Positions 28,626 to 40,914 of a DNA stretch of 41,030 nucleotides are shown one piece after another (within the stretch, counting starts at the first letter, position 1; each line of letters begins with the position of its first letter). The stretch is from Akkermansia muciniphila (GTDB taxonomy: Bacteria; Verrucomicrobiota; Verrucomicrobiia; Limisphaerales; SXQI01). Location of the stretch: positions 1 to 41,030 of the forward strand of contig CAMBHS010000008.1 in the NCBI GenBank assembly GCA_945867235.1. Reading direction: 5' to 3'. Position numbers and translations under genes: made by a program. The notes beneath the pieces are model-generated. The model saw nothing but the letters and a program-made list of their open reading frames with translations, was not told where the DNA came from and made no database searches.

Positions 28626-30122
28626 ATGAAAAACTTTTTTACACTTCTTAAATTCGCGTTGGCACTCGCTGTTTATCCACTGGCGACTCAAGCGCAGGCT
28701 CCAGCTCCAAATCCAACAGCCGAGGTGGCACCCGCCGTCGCTCCCACGAAAGCCGAACCCACCGATCCACAACGTATCTCAGACCTCGAAGCCTATGTGA
28801 ACAACACGGCTCGCCTTTCCGATGCTGTGGACTCCAAAGTTAGTTCTAAAATTTCCGGTGCAGGACCAGGCCACAATGGTTTCCAAATGGTTTGTGCGGC
28901 ATTGGTTCTTTTCATGACTCTCCCCGGTCTTTTCCTGTTCTATGGAGGGTTGGTGCGTAAGAAAAATATCCTGTCTGTTGTCGCCCAGTGCTTTGGTATT
29001 GCGGGTCTCGTTACCATTCTTTGGTTCTTGTATGGTTACAGCTTCGTATTCGGAGACGGTGCGGGTTCCATCCTAGGGAATCTTAAATTTGCCCTTTTTG
29101 ATGGGGTCGATTCGATGCCAAATACGAACTACAGCTATTGGATCTCTCACAACGTTTTTGCCATCTACCAGTTGATGTTCGCGATCATCACCCCTGCCCT
29201 GATCATCGGAGCGATTGCCGAACGCATGAAATTCTCAGCTATCATGGTGTTCGTTGCTATCTGGATGGTAGTGGTTTACTTCCCCTTGGCACACATGTTG
29301 TGGGGAATTAACGGCCTCATGAACGGCGTTTGGAATGCAGACGCAAAAATCAAAGCGATCGATTTCGCAGGCGGAACCGTGGTGCATATGTCTTCAGGTT
29401 GGTCGGCATTGATTCTGTGCCTTCTCCTCGGTAAGCGTCTGGGTTTCGGTAAGGAATCCATGCAACCCCACAGCATGACCATGTGCGCCATCGGCACCGG
29501 AATGCTATGGGTTGGTTGGTATGGTTTTAATGCCGGAAGTGCTGTGGCCGCGGACGGTATTGCTGCCAATGCGTTTACTACCACCACGATTGCTGCAGCC
29601 GTTGCTTCCTTTGTTTGGGCGATGGCGGAGTATATTCTTAGAGGGAAACCCAGCATTCTTGGTTTCTGCTCAGGTGCCGTCGCCGGGTTGGTTGTTGTGA
29701 CACCTGCTTGCGGATTCATCACTCCAGGGGGTTCGTTTATCATCGGAATCGTTGCCGGTATCATTCCCTTCCTCGCTTGTTGGAAGCTCAAGTCGATCTT
29801 CGGGTATGACGATGCCTTGGATACATTTGGTGTTCACGCAGTCGGTGGCACCCTAGGTGCATTGTTAACAGGCATGCTGGCTCGTAATTCAGCGAACGGC
29901 AACCTCGCCACGAATCTAAAAGCCTACGTCACAGATACGTTGTTCCAACCGCTATTGATGGAACAAATCAAAGCAATCGTTATTACCGTTGTTTTGAGCG
30001 TCGTCGGGACCCTTGTCATCGCTTTGATCACCAAAGCCGTCGTCGGTCTGCGAGTGGATGAAGAGGTTGAATCCGTCGGCCTCGATATCGCAGAACACGG
30101 AGAAGAAGGTTACCACGGTTAA
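28626..30122 (+). CDS. amtB: Ammonium transporter, copy 1 (AmtB)
   Basis: This is an inner-membrane ammonium channel of the Amt/Mep/Rh family, 498 residues. A signal peptide (ending ATQAQA) and an Ala/Pro-rich periplasmic segment of about 65 residues precede the eleven transmembrane helices, which begin at FQMVCAALVLFMTLPGL. Both pore histidines are present: the first in IDFAGGTVVHMSSG (His254, equal to E. coli His168), next to the conserved Asp, and the second in FGVHAVGGTLGALLTG. The C-terminal tail ends VGLDIAEHGEEGYHG, matching the GlnK-contacting tail. A hairpin terminator follows. It is the canonical copy of a tandem pair. Confidence 0.97.
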   Translation: MKNFFTLLKFALALAVYPLATQAQAPAPNPTAEVAPAVAPTKAEPTDPQRISDLEAYVNNTARLSDAVDSKVSSKISGAGPGHNGFQMVCAALVLFMTLPGLFLFYGGLVRKKNILSVVAQCFGIAGLVTILWFLYGYSFVFGDGAGSILGNLKFALFDGVDSMPNTNYSYWISHNVFAIYQLMFAIITPALIIGAIAERMKFSAIMVFVAIWMVVVYFPLAHMLWGINGLMNGVWNADAKIKAIDFAGGTVVHMSSGWSALILCLLLGKRLGFGKESMQPHSMTMCAIGTGMLWVGWYGFNAGSAVAADGIAANAFTTTTIAAAVASFVWAMAEYILRGKPSILGFCSGAVAGLVVVTPACGFITPGGSFIIGIVAGIIPFLACWKLKSIFGYDDALDTFGVHAVGGTLGALLTGMLARNSANGNLATNLKAYVTDTLFQPLLMEQIKAIVITVVLSVVGTLVIALITKAVVGLRVDEEVESVGLDIAEHGEEGYHG

Positions 30123-30154
30123 ATAATAATCGTTCACCACGATTAGTTAGTCAG

Positions 30155-30187
30155 CGGCGCGGACATTACTGTTCGCGCCGTTTTTTT
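30155..30187 (+). terminator. Rho-independent terminator after amtB copy 1
   Basis: CGGCGCG and CGCGCCG form a perfect GC-rich stem with a 12-base loop, partly extendable by A-T and G-T pairs, followed by seven T residues. It ends the first glnK-amtB transcript before the second promoter. Confidence 0.9.
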
Positions 30188-30256
30188 GCGCAACCACCAC
30201 CAACCCGAATTAGTCCGTTTTCGATCACACTGGTCAAATCTACGCACATGAATTCT

Positions 30257-30284
30257 ATTCATGATTAAAACTAACCATTTTCAT
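30257..30284 (+). promoter_or_regulatory. Shared upstream element of glnK-amtB copy 2 (candidate activator site)
   Basis: ATTCATGATTAAAA plus a TTCAT repeat 22 bases later is identical in layout to the element before copy 1, and starts about 99 bases upstream of the -24 GG. A further GCATGATT follows at about 30288. Confidence 0.5.
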
Positions 30285-30294
30285 GTTTGCATGA

Positions 30295-30750
<456 letters not shown>

Positions 30751-30774
30751 ATCACTTCTCTCTTGATGATCCTG

Positions 30775-32265
30775 ATGAAAAAAATAATTCTTTTCCTAAA
30801 TCTGGCGATTGCCTTGCTGCTGATTCCGGTGAGCAACGGTGTCGAAAGCCCGACGCCCGTTTCCACCGGTTCCGCCCTAGCGGCAAAGGCATTGAACAAT
30901 CCTACAGAACTTCAACGCCTTGAGGACGTCGAAGCCTACATCAATAATACCGCGAGAGGTGCTGACGCCCAAGGTTCTAAAATAGGAACAAAAGTAGTGG
31001 GTGCAGGCCCTGGGCATAATGCCTTCCAAATGGTATGTGCTGCTTTGGTGCTGTTCATGACCCTGCCGGGTCTCGCCATTTTTTACGGGGGACTCGTACG
31101 CAGAAAAAACGTGCTTTCGATCGTGGCCCAGTGCTTTGGCATCGCGGGATTGGTGACCATCATGTGGTTTGTTTATGGCTACAGCTTCGTTTTTGCTGAT
31201 GGAGCAGGTCCTGTTTTGGGAAACCTCAAATTCGCATTTTTTGAGGGAGTCGATTCCAATCCAAACCCCAACTACAGCTACTGGGTTTCACACAATGTAT
31301 TCTCCATGTATCAGTTAATGTTTGCCATCATTACTCCCGCTGTGTTGATGGGAGCCGTTGCCGAACGAATGAAGTTTTCCGCCGCGATGCTATTTGTAGC
31401 CTTTTGGATGGCCATTGTTTATTTCCCCATCACACACATGGTTTGGGGGATCAATGGTATGATGAATGGCGTTTGGAATCCAGATGCTAAAATAAAAGCG
31501 ATCGATTTTGCCGGTGGTTACGTCGTCGAAATGTCGTCCGGTTGGTCTGCCTTGGTTCTTTGTTTGATCCTTGGAAAACGGACGGGTTACGGAAAAGAAC
31601 TGATGCAACCTCATAGCATGACGTTATGTGCGATTGGTGCAGGGATGTTGTGGGTAGGATGGTATGGGTTTAATGCAGGCAGCGCGGTGGCAGCCGATGG
31701 GATCGCGGCCACAGCCTTTACCACAACTACCATCGCTGCCGCAGTGGCCTCATTCGTTTGGGCCATGGCAGAATATATTGTCCGCGGAAAACCCAGTATT
31801 CTAGGTTTCTGTTCTGGTGCCGTGGCTGGATTGGTCACCATTACACCCGCCTGCGGTTTTGTGACTCCAAGCGGATCGTTCATCATTGGAATATTGGCGG
31901 GAATCATCCCATTCCTCGCTTGTTGGAAATTGAAGGCTTTCTTCAATTATGATGATTCCCTCGATGCCTTCGGCGTTCACGCTGTTGGCGGAACGATGGG
32001 CGTCATACTAACCGGAATGCTGGCTCGGAATTCCGCGAACCCCAATCTTGCGACGAACCTGAAATCCTACGTCACAGACAGCCTGTTCCAACCTCTGGTA
32101 ATGGAGCAGGTCAAGGCGATGCTCATCACGATTGCATTGAATGTTGTTGGAACTTTGATCATTGGGCTCACGTTGAAGGCCACCCTAGGCATTCGCGCCG
32201 ATGAAGAAGTGGAGACAATTGGTTTGGACCTCGCTGAACACGGAGAAGAAGGTTATCACGTTTGA
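30775..32265 (+). CDS. Ammonium transporter, copy 2, with His-to-Glu substitution in the pore
   Basis: This is a paralogue of the preceding AmtB, about 496 residues with the same signal peptide plus N-terminal extension and eleven helices. The key difference is at the first pore histidine. Copy 1 reads DFAGGTVVHMSSG, whereas this copy reads DFAGGYVVEMSSG (codon GAA, residue 252). The second histidine (FGVHAVGGTMG) and the neighbouring Asp are kept. Glu at this position occurs naturally in fungal Mep1/Mep3-type transporters and is associated with altered transport properties. The C-terminal tail VETIGLDLAEHGEEGYHV is conserved. The start could also be the ATG three codons earlier; MKKIILFLNLAIALL aligns best with copy 1. 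Confidence 0.95.
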   Translation: MKKIILFLNLAIALLLIPVSNGVESPTPVSTGSALAAKALNNPTELQRLEDVEAYINNTARGADAQGSKIGTKVVGAGPGHNAFQMVCAALVLFMTLPGLAIFYGGLVRRKNVLSIVAQCFGIAGLVTIMWFVYGYSFVFADGAGPVLGNLKFAFFEGVDSNPNPNYSYWVSHNVFSMYQLMFAIITPAVLMGAVAERMKFSAAMLFVAFWMAIVYFPITHMVWGINGMMNGVWNPDAKIKAIDFAGGYVVEMSSGWSALVLCLILGKRTGYGKELMQPHSMTLCAIGAGMLWVGWYGFNAGSAVAADGIAATAFTTTTIAAAVASFVWAMAEYIVRGKPSILGFCSGAVAGLVTITPACGFVTPSGSFIIGILAGIIPFLACWKLKAFFNYDDSLDAFGVHAVGGTMGVILTGMLARNSANPNLATNLKSYVTDSLFQPLVMEQVKAMLITIALNVVGTLIIGLTLKATLGIRADEEVETIGLDLAEHGEEGYHV

Positions 32266-37395: not shown

Positions 37396-38616
37396 TTACT
37401 TTTTATTGGACTTTTTAGGTGCGGGCACGGGCTTCACATCCTTTGGGGCCTTGTCGTCCTTGGTGGGTAAGCGATCGATAAAATGATCGAGTTCTGTTTC
37501 GGAAATTGCTTTCGGTTTGAGGATCGCGTTTGCGCGTTCCTCAGCGGTCAGCGAGGCGAGTTCCACAGGAGCCGCGACAACATGTGGGGTAAGAAAAATC
37601 ATCAATTCAGTTTTCACTTTAGATTTCTGTTTATGCTTGAACGCAGCCCCGACCCATGGAATGTCCCCAAGCCAAGGAATCTTGCTTTCTGACTCAAGCA
37701 CCTTCGTATCCATAAGTCCGCCTATAATGACCGTTTGACCATCGGGAACCACCACGACGGTATCTGCTAATCGCGAGTTGATGACAGGTGCCAATGCATT
37801 GGCAGAAATGGGAACCCATTGAGAACGATCCGCCAATTGAGAGGACTCGGGTGAAATGATCATTTCCACCATGCCATCCGATGTGATGAACGGAGTAACT
37901 CTGAGTATAATCCCAACGTTTTGGTAAGTGACGGTGTTTATTTGTCCATTCACGGCATCGAATCGGGTGTTGCTTACTAGGGGAACTTGTTGGCCAAGGC
38001 TGATGGTTGCAGGTTGATTGTTCCGAGCAAGAATGGAAGGGCGAGACAATACCTCTGCCTTACCCGCTTGTGCGATGGCTCGTAAGGTCACTTGGTAATC
38101 AGAACCAAGAATCTGATATAACCCTGCCCCTGGAGGCGTTGGTGCAAAATTTTGGACATTTTGCCCGAACACATTACCAACCGCATTAGTAGGTGATCCA
38201 TTTAGACCTGATAATCCGAACGCATTCGCTCCTACAGCTGTCGCTCCATTCCCTATCCCTTTCTTCATCCCTCCTTCGATGCCCATATCAGAACTGTTGT
38301 TGTGCGTGATTTCCAGGAATACCACCTTGATCAGCACCTGTGGCCTTGGCATATCCAGACGCTTTAATACATCCTGGATCTGTAAATTGGTTTCATCATC
38401 GGTGATGACAATGACCTTTCGGGTCTCTGGATCGACAGTAATCGTCGCATCACCAACTTGGGTGTTGTTGGGATATTCTCGAGCAGCGGAGCCCGTGCCA
38501 CCAGTTCGTTGACCATTACCGCCTTGGTTAAACTGAGCCCATGTACTACTCACCAAGCAGCTCAGAAGGCTGATTCCACAAAGGAATTGGGCGGGGGAAC
38601 TAAATTTTATTCTCAT
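37396..38616 (-). CDS. Secretin C-terminal protein (GspD/PilQ pore domain, split gene)
   Basis: This 406-residue protein holds the outer-membrane secretin pore. It begins with its own signal peptide (MRIKFSSPAQFLCGISLLSCLVSSTWA). A short Gly-rich stretch is followed by half an N-module (ATITVDPETRKVIVITDDETNLQIQDVLKRLDM). The secretin core then runs from VLIKVVFLEITH through AIAQAGKAEVLSRPSIL and ISLGQQVPLV to VVVPDGQTVIIGGLMD and IPWLGDIPWVGAAFKHK. The remaining N-domains are encoded by the upstream gene, 38 bases away, so a complete secretin needs both products. The tail (PKDVKPVPAPKKSNKK) is Lys/Pro-rich and may bind a pilotin or peptidoglycan. Confidence 0.92.
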   Translation of the reverse strand: MRIKFSSPAQFLCGISLLSCLVSSTWAQFNQGGNGQRTGGTGSAAREYPNNTQVGDATITVDPETRKVIVITDDETNLQIQDVLKRLDMPRPQVLIKVVFLEITHNNSSDMGIEGGMKKGIGNGATAVGANAFGLSGLNGSPTNAVGNVFGQNVQNFAPTPPGAGLYQILGSDYQVTLRAIAQAGKAEVLSRPSILARNNQPATISLGQQVPLVSNTRFDAVNGQINTVTYQNVGIILRVTPFITSDGMVEMIISPESSQLADRSQWVPISANALAPVINSRLADTVVVVPDGQTVIIGGLMDTKVLESESKIPWLGDIPWVGAAFKHKQKSKVKTELMIFLTPHVVAAPVELASLTAEERANAILKPKAISETELDHFIDRLPTKDDKAPKDVKPVPAPKKSNKK

Positions 38617-38654
38617 GATCCGAATGCTGTTATAAATGGATAAATTGATATCTC

Positions 38655-40247
38655 TTAGTTGTTACGCCCGAAATTGCCACCACCGCCTCCTGCCCCTCCG
38701 CCGCCTCCTTGACCTCCTCCATTGTTGCCTCCAAAGGAACCACCCGTTCGAGTTCCAGTTTGTGACTGTCCAGAACGTGTGGTCAGTGCGCTATTCTGGT
38801 TCGCACCAGTCGTGGTTCTACGGTTTTGTGACTGAGTGTTCTCAAAAAGACCTTTGAGCACTTGTTGGACTTGTTGCGGATCCGCATTTTCTAAATCATA
38901 GACAAATACCTTCTGTTTTTTTGCCGGATTCGAGTCAAGCTGGGTAATCATCTGGCTGATTTGCGGCATCAGATCCCGAGCCGCGCTCACGACAATGGAG
39001 CCTGTGCGTTGATCGGGCATTGTGATCACTTTACTTTGTTTTTTAGCGCGTTCACTAGTCGCGGCTCCACTGTTTTGCCCACCTGAATTCCCAAAACCGC
39101 CAAATTGACCTCCACCAAAGCGAACCTGACCTCGGCTATTGTTGTTGTTGGATTTCGATTCGTCAGGAAATAAACCTTCGAGCATGGTTGCCATCTCAGC
39201 GGGGTCTGCATATATCAAGCGAAACACGCGTAGTTCTGTCACATCCTCAATATTGGTATCTACTTTGGCAATGAGATCTTCTATCGCTGGCATCACATCA
39301 TCAGGGGCCTTGACGGCAACCGAATTGCTGTGCTCATCAGCGGCAACCACAATTCTAGCAGCGGTTGCTCGTGTGTTCGAACTGCTGGCCCCTCTATTCC
39401 CCTGCCCTCCACCTCCTGCAAAAGGATTGCCGCCTCCAGCAAAAGGATTACCTCCACCGCCTCCTCCGCGTCCGCCACCGCCACCGGCACCGCCGCGCGA
39501 AGAATCCTGCTGGGTAGGAAACAACTCTTTCAGCATGGTCACGACTTGTTTCGCATCTGCATATTTTAGCGAAAATACGTGAACCACGGTGTCTTCAGAA
39601 CCAGAGGTGTCTAATGCGCGGATGATTTCCGCAATGCGCCTGATACTGGCTTGCGTATCGGTGATCACGAGTGCGTTCCCTGCTTCATTAGCAGTCATGC
39701 TGGCTTCGCTTGGCAACAACGGTTGCAAATTCTGCGTCAGTTGTGCCGCGTTGATGTAGTGGACAGGAATAATTTGAGTCACCATTTCATCCGTCTTAGG
39801 GATAGCTTCCGGGTTACTGCCACTCTTCACAGGGATTTCGCGTTTTTTAGCTGCTTCTTTGCTGACAACCGTCAGAGTCCGCTCATTTCGTAATGCGGCG
39901 TAACCGTTTTTGCTCAACGCGGAATTCAATATTGTCAGTGCTTCTTCTTGGGTCACGGGTTGGTTACTCCACGCATCAATTTTCCCTTTAATTTCGGTTT
40001 CGAGAACGATAATGAATCCGGCGGCTTCGCTCAAGTAGTTGAGAACCATTTCCAGCGGTGCGCTTCTGAAATTAAGGCGCAGCATTCCATAAGGAAGGGG
40101 AGCCTCTTCTGCCTTGGGTAGGGAATTTTCAACTCTATCAAGAGTTACCTTGTTCGTGTTGATGTCTGCAGCTCGACCCGAGCCAGCCATGAGTAAACTA
40201 AGCAGTAGAAGGCAGCTTAGCCTTGGATTTGTGTTAACGCTTTTCAT
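38655..40247 (-). CDS. Secretin N-domain protein (N0 to partial last N-module, split gene)
   Basis: This is the periplasmic vestibule half of a type II secretion / pilus secretin, 530 residues. The start chosen has GAGGAG eight bases upstream and gives a signal peptide (MKSVNTNPRLSCLLLLSLLMAGSGRA); the track extends 24 codons further. Domains are an N0-like module (LRLNFRSAPLEMVLNYLSEAAGF) and N-modules starting at TQIIPVHYINAAQL, VVHVFSLKYADAKQV, ELRVFRLIYADPAEM and KVFVYDLENADPQQV. The last module is only half present and runs into a Gly/Asn-rich tail. Gly-rich loops also interrupt the middle modules. No pore domain is present; the next gene supplies it. It overlaps the upstream GspC-like gene by 14 bases. 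Confidence 0.9.
   Translation of the reverse strand: MKSVNTNPRLSCLLLLSLLMAGSGRAADINTNKVTLDRVENSLPKAEEAPLPYGMLRLNFRSAPLEMVLNYLSEAAGFIIVLETEIKGKIDAWSNQPVTQEEALTILNSALSKNGYAALRNERTLTVVSKEAAKKREIPVKSGSNPEAIPKTDEMVTQIIPVHYINAAQLTQNLQPLLPSEASMTANEAGNALVITDTQASIRRIAEIIRALDTSGSEDTVVHVFSLKYADAKQVVTMLKELFPTQQDSSRGGAGGGGGRGGGGGGNPFAGGGNPFAGGGGQGNRGASSSNTRATAARIVVAADEHSNSVAVKAPDDVMPAIEDLIAKVDTNIEDVTELRVFRLIYADPAEMATMLEGLFPDESKSNNNNSRGQVRFGGGQFGGFGNSGGQNSGAATSERAKKQSKVITMPDQRTGSIVVSAARDLMPQISQMITQLDSNPAKKQKVFVYDLENADPQQVQQVLKGLFENTQSQNRRTTTGANQNSALTTRSGQSQTGTRTGGSFGGNNGGGQGGGGGAGGGGGNFGRNN
39412..39453 (-). repeat. Two tandem 21-bp repeats encoding GGGNPFA
   Basis: Two adjacent 21-base units in the secretin N-domain gene encode repeated GNPFAGG within a Gly-rich loop. 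The repeat is in frame and probably arose by slippage. Confidence 0.8.
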
Positions 40248-40914
40248 TATTGGACTCCTCTTGTTCTCTTTTTTGCAAAAGGCGTTTGAGCACATCGCTC
40301 TCGCCATCGGCACTTTCAACTACTGGGGTCTTGTCAGAATTTTGACTTGCGCCACTTGATGCGACGCTGGCTGTTGGTAAGCCTGCGGTTGTTACTTCCC
40401 ACTCGCCTTCTTCCTCACGGCGTAATTGGCTGCCGATTTTCAACACCAATTTTTGTACACTATTGGTTAAATTAACTTCGGCGGATGAAATCGAGATCAA
40501 TGTAAGTCCTGCCACCGTGTCGAGTTCTTTAACAGCACTTCGAAATGAAGCTGAGGAACCATCAAAAAACGCACGTTTTCCCTTTTCCGAATTAATGATT
40601 CCTACAAGTGAAATCATCTCCACCCTAGGTGCCTGTGCTACCGCCCGAGGAGTATGCATCGCCCTATTTGGTGCGAATATATTTCGAGTGGTCACGATGG
40701 AGTAGGTCCTGAAGTCGTGTGCATCCGGAGCATTCGTCACGACGGTGGGAGGTATTAGTTCGACCGCAACAGGCACACTGATAGTGATCTCGTTAGTTTT
40801 TTCGAACTTCACCTCATTCGTCGCCTCTGCTATCCCCATCAAAGTAGTAAGACAAGTCACCGCCGAGCATAGGAACCATTGGAACCTTTTTGTAATGGTT
40901 TGGTTATCGTTCAT
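40234..40914 (-). CDS. GspC-like / PilP-like secretion system component
   Basis: This 226-residue protein has one N-terminal hydrophobic segment (about residues 11-30). A linker leads to a domain with YSIVTTRNIFAPNR, VEMISLVGIINSEKGKRAFFDG, LDTVAGLTLISISSAEVNL and QKLVLKIGSQL. This pattern matches the homology region of GspC and the PilP beta-domain, which contact the secretin N0 domain in the periplasm. The C-terminal charged tail (DVLKRLLQKREQEESNNEK) is helix-prone. Position supports the call: it directly precedes and overlaps the secretin N-domain gene. Its ATG overlaps the stop of the gene upstream (ATGA). Confidence 0.75.
   Translation of the reverse strand: MNDNQTITKRFQWFLCSAVTCLTTLMGIAEATNEVKFEKTNEITISVPVAVELIPPTVVTNAPDAHDFRTYSIVTTRNIFAPNRAMHTPRAVAQAPRVEMISLVGIINSEKGKRAFFDGSSASFRSAVKELDTVAGLTLISISSAEVNLTNSVQKLVLKIGSQLRREEEGEWEVTTAGLPTASVASSGASQNSDKTPVVESADGESDVLKRLLQKREQEESNNEKR

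Follow-up and report, generated by a model that had tools for sequence, protein, structure and literature searches.

Introduction

Secretins are textbook single-chain multimeric pores. The locus discussed here raises the question of whether such a pore can instead be divided between two genes in the middle of one of its folded modules, and how the divided module would then be completed. It lies in a stretch of 41,030 nucleotides (contig CAMBHS010000008.1 of assembly GCA_945867235.1; hereafter "the window"), for which an initial annotation, made from the DNA letters only, had proposed that a secretin is split into two genes midway through an N-module, by a fission inside a Gly-rich loop that was accompanied by the acquisition of a new signal peptide. 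In the open-access literature, nothing was found on split gspD genes in Verrucomicrobiota, and no description was found of a GspD that is broken within a module.

Layout of the gene pair

Direct reading of the minus strand of the window reveals two adjacent genes in different frames, named UP and DN (Table 1). UP encodes a signal peptide, N0, N1, N2 and N3, followed by the first half (strand-helix) of a fourth N1-type module. In DN, a separate signal peptide and a Gly-rich linker precede the second half of that module (strand-strand-helix), which leads into the secretin domain. After the three Secretin_N modules, UP continues with KKQKVFVYDLENADPQQVQQVLKGLFE before entering its Gly/Asn-rich tail; between the Gly-rich linker and the secretin domain, DN reads GDATITVDPETRKVIVITDDETNLQIQDVLKRLD. 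The start of UP is most likely the ATG at 40247 (MKSVNTNPRLSC...) rather than the TTG at 40319 of the open reading frame list. The start codon of DN is the ATG at 38616, and its residues M1 and Q28 are present in at least 90% of 50 relatives. Given the gap between the genes, the new ATG, the change of frame and the second signal peptide, the claim that the break is not a frameshift stands.

The gene that precedes UP gave no match in Pfam and is called GspC-like based on its position (the interval between the GspM-like gene and GspD in the operon of a same-genus relative) and on the retention of a similar gene upstream of UP in relatives. Elsewhere in the window (28626-32265), a PII (GlnB-like) gene flanked by two ammonium-transporter-like genes was noted by sequence reading.

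Table 1. Coordinates of the split secretin, its parts and its neighbour in the window, and of three-gene versions in other loci
Feature	Position	Strand	Size, basis and remarks
UP, first secretin gene	38655..40247	-	530 aa; Pfam, TIGR02517 positions 1-283, AlphaFold2 model m91037b2bd801
DN, second secretin gene	37396..38616	-	406 aa; PF00263, TIGR02517 positions 276-600, AlphaFold2 model m947bed127390
Gap from UP stop to DN start	38617..38654	-	38 bases; direct reading
GspC-like gene	40234..40914	-	226 aa; directly upstream of UP, 14-base overlap with UP start
N0 domain	39822..40082	-	PF21305; AlphaFold2 model
N1 module, complete, without long loop	39597..39791	-	PF03958; model E155-161 H167-177 E183-187 E192-198 H199-216; module profile
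N2 module	39258..39593	-	AlphaFold2 model; module profile; loop composition
N3 module with 43-residue Gly/Asn-rich loop	38934..39242	-	AlphaFold2 model; module profile; loop composition
Broken module, first half (strand-helix)	38841..38921	-	module profile positions 6-27; model helix 457-469; dN 0.03-0.06
UP C-terminal tail, Gly/Asn-rich, with NSALTTR-type motif	38658..38840	-	pLDDT <50; composition and motif
DN signal peptide (MRIKFSSPAQFLCGISLLSCLVSSTWA, then Q)	38536..38616	-	sequence; conservation in relatives
DN Gly-rich linker, disordered	38455..38535	-	AlphaFold2 model; composition
Broken module, second half (strand-strand-helix)	38353..38454	-	PF03958 positions 29-69; model; module profile positions 27-59; dN 0.05-0.09
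Secretin domain (gate and outer-membrane barrel)	37567..38352	-	PF00263, 169 bits; Foldseek to GspD/PulD structures
Three-gene T2SS secretin version, L044	5258-8441		break in N2-module loop, own signal peptide
Three-gene T2SS secretin version, L066	5134-8051		break in N2-module loop, own signal peptide
Three-gene T2SS secretin version, L073	5192-8051		break in N2-module loop, own signal peptide

One N-module halved between two products

In UP, N0 (PF21305) and three Secretin_N modules (PF03958) score above the Pfam cut-offs. The Pfam matches in DN are Secretin (PF00263) and, ahead of it, a stretch that covers just the C-terminal part of a Secretin_N module (profile positions 29-69 of 69; 20 bits, below cut-off). 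The GspD model TIGR02517 is covered in order by the two products (Table 1). AlphaFold2 models were calculated for the single chains from 47-50 sequences each and reached a pTM of 0.48-0.57. Modelled alone, DN starts with a disordered stretch that is followed by strand-strand-helix (58-61, 68-71, 74-88) at a pLDDT of about 80. UP alone keeps the helix at 457-469, and the preceding KVFVYDL receives no strand assignment, while its counterpart is a strand in the complete modules of the same model. These complete modules have the order strand-helix-loop-strand-strand-helix with long disordered loops; as the annotation had pointed out, Gly/Asn-rich loops join the same two halves in the two modules before the break. 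The loops measure 52 residues (39360-39515) in N2 and 43 residues in N3.

A module profile of 59 positions, built here from complete modules, matches a terminal first half in 45 of the 50 UP products and an initial second half in 46 of the 50 DN products, the others having been recognized by eye. Single half-modules score low against this profile (3-17 bits), so that the weight rests on their consistent position. The proposed division in mid-module is confirmed, as are fission within a Gly-rich loop and the gain of a new signal peptide. The secretin described here has four N1-type modules, whereas canonical GspD has three. In about ten relatives, the canonical number (N0-N1-N2-N3) is found and the module that is broken is N3 itself; the others have one module more.

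Selection has evidently kept both half-modules. Between members of the genus, the UP half-module has a dN of 0.03-0.06 and the DN half-module one of 0.05-0.09, compared with 0.05-0.09 for intact modules, while the cut ends diverge far more (0.23-0.31 in the UP tail, 0.29-0.49 in the DN signal peptide and linker); only dN was used, because dS is saturated within the genus. This strong constraint on both sides of the break argues against a vestigial half. The loops and tails (38658-39515 and 38455-38535 in the window, and their counterparts in the 50 loci) consist of 30% Gly and contain 213 FG dipeptides, compared with 121 (standard deviation 8) in shuffled loops; GF is enriched, too. These dipeptides may indicate a disordered mesh in the channel or merely reflect simple repeats. 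Although the UP tail varies otherwise, most families share a short motif in it (NSALTTR or NNPLTQR type), possibly a contact site.

The same break in relatives

The same break was found in 50 loci. These come from the majority of the families sampled in the order, from further orders of its class, and from two genomes outside that class. In a comparison of 58 relatives, for the most part a single genome per family of the order, most of those with a DN homologue likewise encode it as a short gene. At the DNA level, UP lies directly upstream of DN in nearly all of the 50 loci and ends in the first half of the module, and DN opens with a separate signal peptide, after which comes the second half. 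The distance between the genes ranges from overlaps to about 50 bases, with 805 bases in L045, and a third gene is interposed in three loci. A search of the phylum with a DN profile retrieved the split form outside the class in only two genomes at an E-value of 1e-80.

Split genes of this kind could arise from an assembly error, a frameshift or a pseudogene, and the window genome is indeed a fragmented assembly of 199 contigs. However, independent genomes share the break at 50 loci, one of which (L085 of G162) lies on a single contig of 4.15 Mb. Each locus has a new start and signal peptide, gap and frame vary, and both UP and DN are under purifying selection, which makes an artefact exceedingly improbable. 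The annotation itself had named close relatives with a single intact gene as a sign of such an error; the search for them returned relatives broken at the same place, and all relatives found with this secretin share the break site. A fused orthologue inside the split clade was looked for among the relatives and none was found. An apparent fusion in G010 (an open frame of 942 aa) was rejected, since the DNA contains a TAG stop followed 11 bases on by the ATG of DN in another frame. The break is ancient, and many families have conserved it.

In a tree with 32 fused secretins of the phylum, the secretin domains of the split DN proteins form one clade (support 100/99), a topology that fits one ancient breakage event. 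In other classes, fused GspD is frequent; G288 and G327 carry both a fused and a split form, with the fused ones falling outside the split clade.

Identity as the secretin of a type II secretion system

Most of the operon lies beyond the end of the contig, which has room for the GspC-like gene only; therefore, the type II secretion system (T2SS) context was read from the same-genus relative G001. There, the pair closes a run of gspE, F, G, H, I, J, K, L, M, C, D1 and D2, in which G, H, I, J, K and M were named by Pfam (H, I and M weakly) and E, F, L and C by position and sequence, so that the split secretin is identified as the T2SS GspD. Comparison by sequence and by fold places both parts on GspD/PulD, with GspD as the best match for DN. 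N0 followed by repeated Secretin_N modules, as expected for TIGR02517, is found in UP (PF21305, PF03958), PF00263 follows straight after the last N-module in DN, and the T2SS gene neighbourhood (gspC, gspE to M) is present in G001. The curated whole-protein cut-off of 351 bits lies above the scores of UP (220.8) and DN (246.5), each of which matches about half of the model in register; in place of the one polypeptide per subunit of GspD, there are two genes with two signal peptides in 50 loci. On contig C10, the window genome encodes a further GspD-like secretin, a fused one, accompanied by a GspE-type ATPase, and hence the split secretin need not be the sole T2SS pore.

With T2SS GspD (PulD, XcpQ and EpsD; TIGR02517; structures 6hcg, 5wln, 5wq7 and 5wq8), the pair shares N0, the N-modules, the secretin domain, the order after gspC and the fold matches. 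It differs from this family in being encoded by two genes that are broken in the last N-module, with two signal peptides, and in having long Gly-rich loops in N2 and N3 and often one extra N-module.

Another secretin encoded by two genes is known from rhizobial-type type III secretion systems (T3SS), where RhcC1 is a remnant, RhcC2, which contains a BON domain, is a Tad-like secretin with a different origin, and the genes lie apart (PMC3459982, PMC3574062, PMC4500985). In both cases, the N-terminal part and the secretin domain are found in separate genes, and a replacement of this kind—leaving the N-terminal remnant of one secretin beside a secretin domain acquired elsewhere—thus has a documented precedent (PMC3459982, PMC4500985). 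For UP and DN, it is nevertheless very unlikely. Two complementary halves of a single module flank the break precisely, an arrangement that a replacement would not leave behind; UP and DN match GspD in register; and the genes are adjacent in nearly all loci. Pfam detected no BON match in DN. In contrast to RhcC1/RhcC2, the pair corresponds to one GspD cut within a module, with its genes adjacent in a T2SS operon (G001), and the two systems differ in origin.

Position of the break and a model for completion in trans

The alignment to PulD ends at residue 296 and restarts at residue 308 of that chain. In the cryo-EM structure of PulD, loops 288-303 and 462-470 were not buildable, and the N3 constriction sites lie in the channel (PMC6882859). 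The loop that contains the break is therefore one that lacks order in canonical GspD; judged from this structure, it would face the channel.

On the level of sequence, the break, both halves, both signal peptides, their conservation, the T2SS operon of the same genus and the single clade are firmly in place. We consider it likely that an ancestral GspD chain was broken in the loop of its last N-module, that its parts are exported separately, and that the module is completed in trans. A single-chain ancestral GspD would have been cut, probably once, in the Gly/Asn-rich loop that leads from the helix to the second strand of that module, with a stop and a new Sec signal peptide most likely replacing part of the long disordered loop. 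UP and DN would then be exported separately, and in the periplasm, the terminal strand-helix of UP and the initial strand-strand-helix of DN would together complete one N-module. This module would link the periplasmic ring stack (N0 to N3), which would meet a GspC-like inner-membrane partner, to the outer-membrane barrel. Both chains would be present in the ring in equal numbers. What is left of the cut ends would be disordered, Gly-rich tails that probably lie in the channel, at the site of the N3 constriction of canonical GspD.

Several observations support this model: the recurrence of the same break with its own signal peptide in 50 loci of one clade; half-modules as conserved as intact ones next to divergent cut ends; a strand that is left unpaired in UP and a strand-strand-helix in DN when each is modelled alone; the operon from gspE to D2; a break that maps to the unresolved N3 loop of PulD; and the independent recurrence of comparable breaks in the N2 loop and in the barrel loop of a second secretin. 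A less probable arrangement, to which we assign a small but appreciable chance, is that UP and DN form separate rings held by other contacts (the tail motif, GspC or peptidoglycan), with the half-modules pairing with themselves or with neighbouring subunits. The conserved NSALTTR-type motif could provide such a separate contact; however, the halves are exactly complementary, no other part of either chain offers the missing strands, and both are strongly conserved. Under the preferred model of completion in trans, the joint of periplasmic stack and barrel could be assembled, opened or titrated in trans, and a conserved natural break in a ring-forming module constitutes a ready-made split-protein system. 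The position of the break in the N3 loop further implies that the N3 constriction needs no continuous chain.

Recurrent breaks in secretins of the phylum

In G007, G031 and G052, the N2 loop is broken as well, with an additional signal peptide, yielding N0-N1-N2a / N2b-N3-N4a / N4b-secretin (coordinates of three-gene versions in Table 1). Grouping these three genomes as one clade is rejected (AU p 4e-8) and the tree requires three changes; by this phylogenetic measure, three lineages broke the N2 module independently.

The second secretin of the window genome (G000:C58), a distant relative of the Amuc_1098 family type IV pilus secretin (NF042912), is divided, too (L006 6310-8697, 795 aa, and L006 5691-6284, 197 aa). 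Here, the break lies inside PF00263, and the 197-aa part has a new signal peptide. Fused relatives have a Gly/Asn/Ser-rich loop exactly at the break site, which corresponds by motif order in the alignment to PulD 462-470, so that this break, too, maps to a loop unresolved in the PulD structure. Such a break inside PF00263 with a new signal peptide occurs in the window's family and several others, while most relatives are in one piece: among the relatives (L127-L141), no fewer than seven families have the split gene, and most others have the fused one. At least four changes between the split and the fused state are required, a single clade of split genes is rejected (AU p 1e-5), and for some relatives, re-fusion is possible. 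No hit was obtained when a fragment of a fused Amuc_1098-like relative was searched against the PDB. As a single order contains fused as well as broken orthologues side by side, this secretin allows one to trace directly how new signal peptides and obligate two-chain domains arise.

Whether these cases reflect a general tendency is, in our estimate, an even question: the gain of a stop and a new signal peptide may repeatedly cut secretins of the phylum at Gly-rich loops that are disordered and face the channel, with folded units—the N-modules of the T2SS secretin and the gate/barrel domain of the second secretin—being built in trans from separately exported chains. The split GspD itself is a genuine variant of a known machine, both ancient and recurrent, and pipelines that require one GspD above a score cut-off will call such T2SS incomplete.

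Two further features of secretin genes were observed. In L134 1465-4146 (G051:C50), the N part of a split Amuc_1098-like secretin ends in an extension that, by eye, resembles the intramolecular chaperone domain of peptidase S74. Giant open frames of about 3,600-5,150 codons with a C-terminal secretin domain are present in L093 7005-16001 (G034:C5), L075, G010:C162, G044:C60, G030:C1 and G001:C139; the one in L093, which is cut at its end, contains at least 26 Secretin_N modules, and a secretin with that many N-modules would be extremely long.
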